From assembly GCA_007693765.1 (NCBI GenBank), contig RECZ01000102.1, positions 1 to 64,000 on the forward strand: 64,000 bases of DNA, given 5' to 3'. The notes beneath the pieces are model-generated. The model saw only the letters and a program-made list of their open reading frames with translations. It made no database searches and was not told where the DNA came from. The first letter of the stretch is position 1; every line of letters starts with the position of its first letter. Source of the DNA: Phycisphaerales bacterium (lineage in GTDB: Bacteria; Planctomycetota; Phycisphaerae; Phycisphaerales; UBA1924). A program made the position numbers and the translations under genes. This document shows, in pieces, positions 23,673 through 30,706 of the stretch.

Positions 23673-23701
23673 TTGCATTTATCCCTCGTGGCACATACTC
23701 T
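23673..23701 (+). promoter_or_regulatory. Promoter of PEP-CTERM paralogue 1
   Basis: -35 TTGCAT at 23673-23678, 17-bp spacer, -10 TACTCT at 23696-23701. It is located like the promoters of paralogues 2 and 3, about 100 bases before the start codon. Confidence 0.6.
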
Positions 23702-23713
23702 GGTGGTATGTGG

Positions 23714-23745
23714 GGCGGTTGCCGCCGCCCCTTTGGAACACGTCA
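23714..23745 (+). promoter_or_regulatory. Conserved leader element, copy 1
   Basis: A short hairpin GGCGG-TTG-CCGCC (23714-23726) is followed by the 11-mer GGAACACGTCA at 23735-23745. The same 11-mer lies in the leaders of both downstream paralogues at a similar distance from the promoter. Function unknown. Confidence 0.6.
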
Positions 23746-23801
23746 CAGACTCTCGGCGATGACGCTCGCGTCGGTCGTCTATAAGAGGAGGGAACACACG
23801 C

Positions 23802-24506
23802 ATGCGAATTCTGACCGCTTCGTTGCTCGCGGCCGCCGTCGCCGGCTCCGCGTCCGCCAACATCACCCAGGTCGTGCCCCCCGCGTACGACGGCGCCCAG
23901 GGCACCGCGTCGTTCGTCGGCCCCATGGCCATCGGCGCCCGCACGTACCAGTTGCTCATCAGCGAGACGCAGCTCACCAACCTCGTGGGCCTCGAGCTCA
24001 CCGGCATCTCGTGGCGCCTCCCCGCCAACGCCACCATCGGCTGGCCCGCCTCGAACCTGTCGTACAACAACTACGACATCTACCTGAGCGACAGCGTGGA
24101 CCCCTCTGACCGCAGCCTGACGTTCGCCGACAACATCGTCGGGACGCAGACGCAGGTCCGCTCGGGCGCGCTCTCCGTGGACGCGGGCGACTACACCTTC
24201 GGCTCCAGCCCCAACGCCTTCGGCCCCACGATCTTCTTCAACACGGGCTACCTGTACACGGGCGGCAACCTGCTGCTCGAACTCCGCCACGACGGCAACG
24301 GCGTCGCCTCGCGCGCCATGGACGCCATCGGCACCTCGACCGCCGGCTACGGCACGGACTTCAGCGCCGCGTGGCAGAGCGGGTACGACGCCGTCTCCGG
24401 CTTCCAGGGCAACTTCGCGATCGTCGAGTTCACGGCCATCCCCGCCCCCGGCGCCGCGGCGCTGCTCGGGCTGGGCGCGCTGGTCGCGACGCGCCGCCGC
24501 CGCTGA
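23802..24506 (+). CDS. PEP-CTERM-like secreted protein, paralogue 1 of 3
   Basis: A 234-residue exported protein of unknown function. The signal peptide is residues 1-19 (ending GSASA). The body is a beta-rich domain with conserved blocks RTYQLLISETQLTNLVGLEL, NYDIYLSDSVDPSDRSLTF, GTQTQVRSGALSVD and YLYTGGNLLLELRHDGNG. The tail PAPGAAALLGLGALVATRRR is a PEP-CTERM-like sorting signal. AGGAGGGAA lies before the ATG at 23802. It is closely related to the next two genes (tandem duplication). Cell-surface display by an exosortase-like system is inferred; no exosortase is in the window. Confidence 0.88.
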   Translation: MRILTASLLAAAVAGSASANITQVVPPAYDGAQGTASFVGPMAIGARTYQLLISETQLTNLVGLELTGISWRLPANATIGWPASNLSYNNYDIYLSDSVDPSDRSLTFADNIVGTQTQVRSGALSVDAGDYTFGSSPNAFGPTIFFNTGYLYTGGNLLLELRHDGNGVASRAMDAIGTSTAGYGTDFSAAWQSGYDAVSGFQGNFAIVEFTAIPAPGAAALLGLGALVATRRRR

Positions 24507-24537
24507 TCCGATTTCGCCGCAAGATTCTCGAACACCC

Positions 24538-24578
24538 CGCCGCGGGGCGTCGTCCGGACGCCCCGCGGCGTCTTTTTT
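24538..24578 (+). terminator. Strong intrinsic terminator after paralogue 1
   Basis: A 14-bp GC stem (24538-24551 with 24557-24570) with loop GTCCG, followed by TCTTTTTT. Confidence 0.9.
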
Positions 24579-24629
24579 GCCCCGAGCGACGCCCGACCAC
24601 GGCATCTGACGGCGTCTGATGGTTTTTTC

Positions 24630-24658
24630 TTGCCTGCACCCCCCATAACACGGTATCT
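24630..24658 (+). promoter_or_regulatory. Promoter of PEP-CTERM paralogue 2
   Basis: -35 TTGCCT at 24630-24635, 17-bp spacer, -10 GTATCT at 24653-24658. Confidence 0.55.
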
Positions 24659-24695
24659 TGGTGATCGATTGGGAGGTTGCGTTCGTCGCCCCCTC

Positions 24696-24706
24696 GGAAC
24701 ACGTCA
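24696..24706 (+). promoter_or_regulatory. Conserved leader 11-mer, copy 2
   Basis: GGAACACGTCA, identical to copies 1 and 3, 37 bases beyond the -10. The hairpin before it is weak here (GAGG at 24673-24676 with CCTC at 24692-24695). Confidence 0.6.
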
Positions 24707-24759
24707 ACTCCAGCCCGTCCCTCCCGATGGAGGGCCGGCACAACAGGAGGGAATGCAAC

Positions 24760-25470
24760 ATGCGTCTTTTGAGCGTTTCGATCATGAGCGCGGCGATCGC
24801 GGGCGCGGCCGCCGCGGGGCCTATCACGCAGACGGTCCCGTTGAGCGCGGAGAACGCCGCCGGCAACTCGACCTTCCTCGGCCCGCTCGCCAACAGCCAG
24901 CGGACGTATCAGCTCCTCGTGCACGAGTCGCAACTGACGAACCTCGTGGGCCTGCGGCTGACAGGCCTCTCGTGGCGACTGCCGACGGCCGCCACCATCG
25001 ATTGGCCCGCCGCGATCGTCGAGTACGCGAACTACGACATTTACATCAGCGACAGCGTCAACCCCGCGGATCGCAGCCTGACCTTCGCGGACAACGTCGT
25101 CGGGACGCAGACGCAGGTTCGCTCCGGCGCGCTGACGATCGACGAGAACTCGTACACCTCGGGCAGCAGCCCCAACGCCTTCGGCCCGACCATCGACTTC
25201 GGGACGGAATACCTGTACACGGGCGGCAACCTGCTCGTCGAGATCCGCCACACCGGGTTCACGGGGACGTCGCGGAGCGTCGATGCGTACAGCACCTCCG
25301 CCGCGACCGGCTACGGCTCGCTCTTCAGCGCCGCCTGGACCGGCAACTACGAGGGCGTGCAGGGCACGCAGGGCAATTTCTCGATCTTCCAGTTCAACGC
25401 GATCCCCACGCCCGGCGCCGCGGCGCTGCTGGGCATGGGCGCGCTGGTCGCTGCGCGTCGTCGCCGCTGA
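24760..25470 (+). CDS. PEP-CTERM-like secreted protein, paralogue 2 of 3
   Basis: A 236-residue exported protein. The signal peptide is about residues 1-20 (SVSIMSAAIAGAAAAG). The domain is the same as in paralogue 1, with blocks RTYQLLVHESQLTNLVGLRL, NYDIYISDSVNPADRSLTF and YLYTGGNLLVEIRHTG. It ends PTPGAAALLGMGALVAARRR. AGGAGGGAA precedes the ATG at 24760. It is most like paralogue 3 at the C-terminus. No enzymatic residues are conserved between the three, which suggests a structural or binding role. Confidence 0.88.
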   Translation: MRLLSVSIMSAAIAGAAAAGPITQTVPLSAENAAGNSTFLGPLANSQRTYQLLVHESQLTNLVGLRLTGLSWRLPTAATIDWPAAIVEYANYDIYISDSVNPADRSLTFADNVVGTQTQVRSGALTIDENSYTSGSSPNAFGPTIDFGTEYLYTGGNLLVEIRHTGFTGTSRSVDAYSTSAATGYGSLFSAAWTGNYEGVQGTQGNFSIFQFNAIPTPGAAALLGMGALVAARRRR

Positions 25471-25503
25471 GCGCGCCGATTACGCTCGATCCAACCATAC
25501 ACC

Positions 25504-25539
25504 GACCGCGGTGCGTCGCTACGGCGCACCGCGGTCTTT
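25504..25539 (+). terminator. Intrinsic terminator after paralogue 2
   Basis: A 12-bp stem GACCGCGGTGCG/CGCACCGCGGTC (25504-25515 with 25525-25536), 9-nt loop, but only TTT afterwards. Confidence 0.7.
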
Positions 25540-25597
25540 GCGTTGGCTCACGGGCCGTTCTTCGGGGCGAATTGTGATGGAAATGCCCATTTTTTTC

Positions 25598-25626
25598 TTT
25601 GTAGATCGGGCACACCACTGTATGCT
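25598..25626 (+). promoter_or_regulatory. Promoter of PEP-CTERM paralogue 3
   Basis: -35 TTTGTA at 25598-25603 (or TTGTAG one base on), 17-bp spacer, -10 TATGCT at 25621-25626. Confidence 0.55.
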
Positions 25627-25637
25627 CTGTTCGGAAT

Positions 25638-25668
25638 GCGCCGTTGTGGCGCCTTTCGGAACACGTCA
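25638..25668 (+). promoter_or_regulatory. Conserved leader element, copy 3
   Basis: Hairpin GCGCC-GTTGT-GGCGC (25638-25652) followed by GGAACACGTCA at 25658-25668. Confidence 0.6.
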
Positions 25669-25719
25669 TTGATCCTCGGCCGCCGCGGCTCGCGGTCCGT
25701 CACGCAGGAGGGAACACAC

Positions 25720-26430
25720 ATGCGCAAAGTCAGTATCGCCATGTTCACCGCGGTCATCGCCGGCGCGGCGAGCGGTGGTCAGATCACTCAGGTCGTACCC
25801 GGGGCGTACACGAACACGCCGGGCACGGGCGTCTTCCTCGGCCCGATGACCATCGGCCCGCGCACCTACCAGATGCTGCTGCACGAGGACATGCTCACGA
25901 ACCTCGTGGGCCTCGAGCTCACCGGCATGTCGTGGAGGCTCCCGCTCAGCGCGACCACCGGCTGGCCCGCGTCGGACATCGCGTACAGCAACTACGACAT
26001 CTACCTCAGCGGCAGCGTCGACCCATCTGACCGCAGCCTGACCTTCGCGGACAACGTCGTCGGGACGCAGACGCAGGTGCGCTCCGGCGCGCTGACGATC
26101 GACGCGGACTCGTTCGGCTTCGGCGGGTCTCCCACGAACGACTTCGGCCCGACGGTCGGCTTCCAGAGCGGCTACCTCTACACGGGCGGGAACCTGCTCG
26201 TTGAGATCCGCCACGAGGGCAACGGCTTCGGCTCGCGCGCTCTCGACGCGCTGACGACATCAACCTCCGGGTACGGGTCGATGTTCAGCGCCGCGTGGCA
26301 GAGCAGCTACACGGCCACGACAGGCCTGCAGGGCAACTTCACCATCTTCCAGTTCACCGCCATCCCCACCCCCGGCGCCGCGGCGCTGCTGGGCATGGGC
26401 GCGCTGGTCGCTGCGCGTCGCCGCCGCTGA
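25720..26430 (+). CDS. PEP-CTERM-like secreted protein, paralogue 3 of 3
   Basis: A 236-residue exported protein. The signal peptide is about residues 1-19 (SIAMFTAVIAGAASG). It shares the blocks RTYQMLLHEDMLTNLVGLEL, NYDIYLSGSVDPSDRSLTF and YLYTGGNLLVEIRHEGNG and ends PTPGAAALLGMGALVAARRR. The ATG at 25720 has AGGAGGGAA upstream. Each of the three genes has its own promoter, leader and terminator, so they can be expressed independently despite being tandem. Confidence 0.88.
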   Translation: MRKVSIAMFTAVIAGAASGGQITQVVPGAYTNTPGTGVFLGPMTIGPRTYQMLLHEDMLTNLVGLELTGMSWRLPLSATTGWPASDIAYSNYDIYLSGSVDPSDRSLTFADNVVGTQTQVRSGALTIDADSFGFGGSPTNDFGPTVGFQSGYLYTGGNLLVEIRHEGNGFGSRALDALTTSTSGYGSMFSAAWQSSYTATTGLQGNFTIFQFTAIPTPGAAALLGMGALVAARRRR

Positions 26431-26460
26431 GGCGCACACACCGACGAACGTTGATGCACA

Positions 26461-26495
26461 CGCGGGGCGCCGATCGCGGCGCCCCGCGTTTTTTT
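26461..26495 (+). terminator. Strong intrinsic terminator after paralogue 3
   Basis: An 11-bp stem CGCGGGGCGCC/GGCGCCCCGCG (26461-26471 with 26478-26488), 6-nt loop, T-run to 26495. Confidence 0.9.
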
Positions 26496-29192: not shown

Positions 29193-30706
29193 CAGTGATC
29201 GCCCTCCGCCTCGTCGCCCTCGGGCAGCACGTCCGCGGGATCGACGCCGCCGCGGAAGGTGAGGCTCGCGTCGGGCGTCTCGTCGAGCACCCAGGTGTCC
29301 TTGCTGCCCCCGCCCTGCGAGGAGTTCACAACCAGCGATCCCTTCTTGAGGGCGACGCGGGTGAGGCCGCCGGGGAGGATGTGGGTCTCTTCGCCGAGGA
29401 GGATGAAGGGGCGGAGGTCGACGTGGCGGCCCTCGAAGCCGTCGCCCACGATCACCGGGGCGCGGGAGAGCGCCAGCGTGGGCTGGGCGATGTAGTTGCG
29501 CGGGTTGGCCTTGATGCGCTGGGCGAAGTCTTCGCACTCCGCCTTCGTCGCGTGCGGCCCGACGAGCATGCCGTAGCCGCCGGACTCGTTGGCGGGCTTG
29601 ACGACGAGCTTGGCGATGTTGGCCAGCACGTAGGAGAGGTCTTCCTTGCGCCAGCAGAGGAACGTCTCGACGTTGGGAAGGATCGCGTCCTGGTCGAGGT
29701 AGTAGCGGATGATCTCGGGCACGTAGGCGTAGATCACCTTGTCGTCCGCGACGCCCGTGCCGGGGGCGTTGGCCAGCGCGACGCGACCGGCGCGGTGCGC
29801 ATCCATGAGCCCGGGGACGCCCAGCGCCGAGTCGGAGCGGAAGGCGTGGGGATCGATGAAGTCGTCGTCGATGCGCCGGTAGATCACGTCCACCCGCTGG
29901 GGGCCGTCCGTGGTGCGCATGAAGACGACGCCGTCCTGCACAAAAAGATCGGACCCCTCCACGAGCTCGATGCCCATCTGCTGGGCCAGGAACGCGTGCT
30001 CGAAGTACGCCGAGTTGAAGACGCCCGGCGTCAGCACCACCACCGTCGGGGACTCGGCGTGCGGCGCCAGGCACTGCAGCGTCTCGAGGAGGCGGATGGG
30101 GTAGTCGTCCACCGGGCGCACGCGCGAGGCGCGGAAGACGTGCGGGAACGTGCGCTTGAGGATCTGCCGGTTCTCGATGACGTACGACACGCCCGAGGGG
30201 CAGCGGAGGTTGTCTTCGAGGACGTAGTACTGGCCGTCGCCGGCGCGGACGAGGTCGGTGCCCGTGATGTGGCACCAGATACCCAGCGGGGGCTTGAGCC
30301 CGGCGCACTGGGGCCTGTAGGCGGCGCAGGAGAGGATGAGATCCTCGGGGACGACGCCGTCCCTGATGATGTTCTGGTCGTTGTAGATGTCGTGGAGGAA
30401 CGCGTTGAGCGCACGGATGCGCTGCGCCAGGCCGCGTTCGATCGGCTCCCACTCCCGCGCTTCGATGATGCGGGGGATGATGTCGAAGGGGAAGATCTTC
30501 TCCTCCGCGTCCTCGTCGCCGTAGACGTTGAAGGTGATGCCCATGTTGAGCAGCGCCACCTCGGCCGCCTTCTGGCGTCGGAGCAGATCGCCCTCCTGGA
30601 GCGACTCGATCCGCTCTTTGAGCAGACGCCCACCGGGGCGCGGATCGCTCCCGTCGAGGAACATCTCGTCGAAAAATCCGTCGGTTGTGTAGCCGTTGAA
30701 GTTCAT
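29192..30706 (-). CDS. Circularly permuted type 2 ATP-grasp protein
   Basis: A 504-residue predicted amide-bond ligase. Blocks of the family: [37 protein letters not shown] (the permuted metal-binding part), [19 protein letters not shown] (phosphate-binding) and [20 protein letters not shown]. The C-terminus [15 protein letters not shown] is typical. It is first in the Anbu cluster. The ATG at 30706 gives [16 protein letters not shown], the usual N-terminus. Substrate unknown. Confidence 0.94.

Follow-up and report, generated by a model that had tools for sequence, protein, structure and literature searches.

Three tandem genes of the PEP-CTERM type carry the same 11-base word, GGAACACGTCA, before their start codons, which raises the question of whether this word is a remnant of gene duplication or a signal and, if a signal, whether it is read in DNA or in RNA. 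The window, that is, the whole 64,000-nt stretch that was analysed, lies in contig C75 of a 2.9-Mb draft genome (a MAG, referred to as G000). By eye and with a simple score, the gene products were seen to have a signal peptide at the N-terminus, a single hydrophobic segment on the C-terminal side and a basic end, and the tail is made up of P-x-P-G, a hydrophobic stretch and RRRR. Every match of the tails to PF07589 was under the cut-off (best 19.3 vs 20.7 bits), as was that of the gene 1 tail to TIGR02595 (12.8 vs 16 bits); the genes are therefore named "PEP-CTERM-type". The locus is laid out as follows.

23673..23701, + strand: gene 1, putative promoter: TTGCAT and TACTCT, 17 nt apart, a weak match by hexamer scoring
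23712..23731, + strand: perfect hairpin GGGGCGG/CCGCCCC just 5' of motif copy 1 (folding)
23735..23745, + strand: leader motif copy 1, GGAACACGTCA (exact word search, genome-wide counts, alignment)
23802..24506, + strand: gene 1, PEP-CTERM-type, encoding 234 aa with a signal peptide and the tail IPAPGAAALLGLGALVATRRRR (ORF, tail profile)
24538..24570, + strand: intrinsic terminator 3' of gene 1 (terminator scan)
24630..24659, + strand: gene 2, putative promoter: TTGCCT and GTATCT/TATCTT, 17-18 nt apart, a weak match
24671..24693, + strand: imperfect hairpin 5' of motif copy 2 (sequence, folding)
24696..24706, + strand: leader motif copy 2, GGAACACGTCA (exact word search, genome-wide counts, alignment)
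24715..24738, + strand: hairpin 3' of motif copy 2 and 5' of the gene 2 ribosome-binding site (folding)
24760..25470, + strand: PEP-CTERM-type gene 2, 236 aa (tail profile)
25504..25536, + strand: intrinsic terminator 3' of gene 2 (terminator scan)
25599..25626, + strand: gene 3, putative promoter: TTGTAG and TATGCT, 16 nt apart, a weak match
25638..25652, + strand: perfect hairpin GCGCC/GGCGC 5' of motif copy 3 (sequence, folding)
25658..25668, + strand: leader motif copy 3, GGAACACGTCA (exact word search, genome-wide counts, alignment)
25720..26430, + strand: PEP-CTERM-type gene 3, 236 aa (tail profile)
26460..26489, + strand: intrinsic terminator 3' of gene 3 (terminator scan)

The three exact copies are the only ones in the window, and none of the one-mismatch versions of the word occurs there. 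Shuffled windows had a mean of 0.03 copies, and 0 of 100 shuffles reached three. A preliminary description of the locus had placed the motif about 50-60 bases before the start codon, in a leader that is otherwise diverged, with a short hairpin before two of the copies and a terminator for each gene, and all of this was recovered. The distances to the ATGs (23802, 24760 and 25720) were 56, 53 and 51 nt, the block GAACACGTC stood out together with the ribosome-binding site in a four-way alignment of the three window leaders and that of a relative, and the hairpin was perfect at copies 1 and 3 and imperfect at copy 2. The promoters, described as 17-bp-spaced and 31-37 bases before the motif, were reproduced in part: the gap of the best TTG/TA-rich pairs to the motif was about 31-37 nt, dependent on the choice of hexamers, whereas their spacers were 17, 17-18 and 16 nt, the hexamers were weak, and a consensus promoter scan gave none at its threshold. 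A reading frame that begins at the motif, ahead of the gene, was also considered and rejected: an in-frame TTG follows copy 3, and copies 1 and 2 have no nearby start codon.

Residual identity from tandem duplication is one reading of the shared word, and the three window genes are indeed paralogues with 66-69% identity. However, the word was not confined to them. The genome contained 10 exact copies of GGAACACGTCA and none of the reversed word, and inspection of the contexts placed 10 of 10 in leaders of genes with a signal peptide and a P-x-P-G ... RRR(R) tail. With a profile built from the tail, about 50 such genes were collected in G000. The top 8-mer of their leaders, with no word preselected, was AACACGTC, of which 22 copies were found before 18 genes in about 50-52 leaders, against a shuffle maximum of 7; start codons in these sets were picked by a heuristic, and the tallies are partly shaped by the search pattern. 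From the density in 863 kb of G000 stretches, in which genes were called roughly, with window gene 1 missed, 0.15 copies were expected in the leaders, so that the enrichment is about 150-fold, and elsewhere the 8-mer was at background (26 copies in the 863 kb, those of the window included, vs 27 for the reversed control). The consensus of the motif was GGRAACACGTC(A/G/C), and information dropped to nothing beyond both ends of the 11-mer. The 18 genes led by AACACGTC represent 13 families without relationship in their mature part and are spread over many contigs. Chance occurrence is rejected, and duplication residue, refuted by the unrelated families, the many contigs and a second genus, keeps practically no probability. 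The refuting conditions set in the preliminary description (a random or coding-region rate of the word, or mere duplication identity) were examined, and none held. The common signal first proposed for the tandem family thus stood, with too narrow a scope: it marks a genome-wide set rather than three paralogues. Outside this set, AGAAACACGTCA was seen 3' of a hairpin (G000:C172, L337 3302), at a distance of 161 nt from a downstream gene that looks secreted but has no such tail, a possible non-PEP-CTERM target.

The second genus is represented by G009 (Phycisphaeraceae MAG DLM2.Bin55, contig RECQ01000036). Its orthologue of the window genes (62% identity) has AGAACACGTCA about 50 nt before the ATG, at the matching place of a diverged leader, and further orthologue pairs of the two genomes retain the motif at shifted positions. 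CACGTCA was the top 7-mer of the PEP-CTERM-type leaders in G009 (in 10 of 30 at first, and in 12 of 38 once further genes had been added) and had no antisense copy; the 12 leaders compare with 0.27 expected, 44-fold above the background of that genome. The GG part of the motif is not conserved there, and CACGTCA is the part retained. Five other genomes of the family had CACGTCA in 1 of 96 leaders, and a search for RGAACACGTCA across 150 family genomes made G000 an outlier with 11 copies. Judged from these sequences, the signal is restricted to its lineage and under selection there, and it is highly probable that a selected leader element exists. In three relatives without the motif (G017, G018 and G104), the ribosome-binding regions of the PEP-CTERM-type leaders are rich in GGAGAGAG, which sets them apart from G000 and G009.

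The preliminary description had left open whether such an element functions in DNA or in RNA. The motif is present in roughly one in three PEP-CTERM-type leaders, between -1 and about -240 relative to the ATG, and in most of these leaders promoter-like sequences are found ~26-78 nt 5' of it. A DNA operator, on which a transcription factor would act as a roadblock or repressor 3' of the promoter, would suit this arrangement and the sharp edges of the motif. However, a promoter-downstream operator usually tolerates either orientation, and the curated leaders of both genomes were free of antisense copies (one antisense AACACGTC appeared in G000 in another variant of the gene set); moreover, the motif is not palindromic, its positions are wide-ranging and some copies overlap the start codon. 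An operator is therefore considered unlikely. Because the motif is sense-only, lies inside leaders, sometimes overlaps ribosome-binding sites and is predicted to be exposed, function in RNA or in the transcribing complex is favoured, and the motif would control the expression of the genes. One antisense copy was noticed on G000:C50 (L110 near 1500), 5' of a multihaem-cytochrome-like gene, and is probably due to chance; it was discarded as the seed of a small RNA, since one such site is unsurprising by chance.

Folding predictions gave the motif a higher unpaired value than its leader in both genomes (0.65 vs 0.44, p 7e-5, in G000; 0.58 vs 0.45, p 0.015, in G009). In G000 the motif follows a predicted hairpin (33 nt upstream; z -1.2, p 7e-4), and of 20 such hairpins 12 end 9-16 nt before the last C of the motif vs 5.9 in shuffles; this pattern was not seen in G009, where the upstream hairpin was not significant. 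Two copies lie directly 3' of the stop codons of two paralogues (G000:C72, L153 68-78 and 1167-1177), one of them in the predicted hairpin loop GTGCGGG-AACACGT-CCCGCAC. In the two genomes together, seven copies occupy the spacer that separates the Shine-Dalgarno sequence from the ATG (GAGGAACACGTCATC-ATG and alike). These spacer copies, and the similarity of the genome's own Shine-Dalgarno regions, GGAGGGAACACAC, would also fit an extended ribosome-binding or standby signal that needs no dedicated regulator. This is judged about as improbable as the operator, because most copies are 16-180 nt 5' of a separate Shine-Dalgarno sequence, the word is not enriched beyond PEP-CTERM-type leaders, and G009 conserves CACGTCA and not the SD-like GGA.

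Recognition in RNA is favoured by the motif being predicted unpaired, the preceding hairpin in G000, the copies between Shine-Dalgarno sequence and ATG and the copies after stop codons. We infer that the motif is single-stranded and acts at the RNA level, and our best explanation, to which we give an even chance, is that the 11-mer is the recognition site of a PEP-CTERM-type regulon read by a trans-acting factor. The cis-acting element GGRAACACGUC(A/G/C) would sit in the 5' leaders of scattered PEP-CTERM-type surface-protein genes as a short single-stranded site, predicted to be kept open by flanking hairpins; one trans-acting factor, either an RNA-binding protein or an antisense RNA, would recognise it in the transcript and would thereby tune the translation or lifetime of all these mRNAs jointly. 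Against this model it can be held that about two thirds of the PEP-CTERM-type leaders have no motif, that neither a significant upstream hairpin nor the GG part is seen in G009, that the motif lies at very different distances from the promoter and from the start codon, and that a NusG paralogue with the same presence and absence as the motif, described below, is not predicted by it.

An extended form of this RNA model involves a 289-nt stretch 5' of serS on the minus strand (G000:C112, ~30,400-30,700; L360 10410-10700), which has a folding z of -5.8. This candidate RNA begins in a promoter-like way, ends in a strong terminator and is predicted to form about eight hairpins with purine-rich linkers, which carry a partial motif copy and, in one linker, GAGAAACACGTCA. 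Neither the leaders nor the candidate RNA reached a gathering score in Rfam, where matches were sub-threshold at most; serS was not within the ~790 kb of G009 examined. The stretch could be a sponge, but a single intergenic motif copy is not far from chance. That a regulator, protein or small RNA, binds single-stranded GGRAACACGUCA and is titrated by the 289-nt RNA is offered tentatively, as possible rather than probable. A structured RNA with GGA linkers, the GGA in most motif copies of G000, and two CsrA genes in that genome, both above cut-off, would also agree with a CsrA/RsmA regulon, in which CsrA bridges the GGA of the motif and that at the Shine-Dalgarno sequence. Yet ANGGA is present at only 8 of 22 copies in G000, and GGA is near 5 of 16 in G009, where CACGTC is retained, so that CsrA is a very improbable reader of the site.

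The transcribing complex itself is the subject of another reading, an ops-like site at which RNA polymerase would pause and be joined by an UpxY/RfaH-like NusG paralogue, raising elongation and translation of the surface-protein mRNAs. The GG...YR spacing of the motif is loosely like that of the consensus pause, and the motif, strand-specific, ~12 bp long and located in transcribed leaders of many unlinked genes, resembles ops. G000 and G009 each have a second NusG-domain gene, and the five motif-less genomes have a single NusG-domain gene each; this profile was searched after the idea had arisen and, with 2 vs 5 genomes, is weak, as it would arise by chance in 1 of 21 cases. The second copies of G000 and G009 align over their length, with UpxY as best model followed by RfaH, at UpxY scores of 81 and 72 bits that are under the 100-bit cut-off. 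RfaH has been reported to act through ops sites that lie in the leaders of multiple targets at unlinked places (PMC7593976). Several points fit poorly, however: the targets here are short single genes, some copies follow stop codons, the G009 paralogue lies beside glycosyltransferase and flippase-like genes while UpxY usually acts on its own operon, and the leader of that paralogue showed no motif. The ops-like site is the main rival of the RNA model and is rated as doubtful. The two NusG paralogues are orthologues (L322 664-1629 on G000:C87; L321 1441-1980 on G009:C29); the one of G009 is ~4-5 kb from a motif-led gene, and that of G000 adjoins three genes with PLPTP...RRRR tails.

The element is, apparently, an undescribed leader signal of PEP-CTERM-type genes in Phycisphaeraceae, which suggests that control is exerted in the leader and not at the promoter; the NusG paralogue and the structured RNA are named as candidates for follow-up. 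Our search for literature on PEP-CTERM regulation found work on sigma-54/PrsR (RpoN) alone, and nothing relevant that connects leader RNA elements, RfaH or CsrA with PEP-CTERM genes. A sigma-54/PrsR cis-regulatory site has been described before proteobacterial PEP-CTERM genes, with further regulators and motifs left to find (Haft 2006, PMC1569441). Both systems have a common signal before many scattered PEP-CTERM genes, mostly in single-gene units; the proteobacterial site is a two-part upstream promoter/enhancer with two 17-nt motifs, whereas here an 11-nt block lies inside the leader, and the sigma-54 site TGGCAC-N5-TTGC(A/T) fitted 50 leaders no better than shuffles. As far as sequence comparison tells, the proteobacterial signal is different from the leader motif.

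CsrA/RsmA with CsrB-like sponges share with our element a leader GGA near the ribosome-binding site, a hairpin context and a structured RNA, here a candidate one, in which a linker contains the motif, but the core conserved here is CACGUCA and not ANGGA, and GGA is not retained in G009. The motif, GGRAACACGTC(A/G/C), does not match the ops sequence of RfaH, GGCGGTAGNNTG. Compared with RfaH/ops, UpxY and LoaP, the present element differs in sequence, in its short single-gene targets and in copies at start codons, and recruitment is putative; like theirs, it is a short, strand-specific leader element of several unlinked surface-related targets, and it co-occurs with an UpxY/RfaH-like paralogue that scores under the curated cut-offs.
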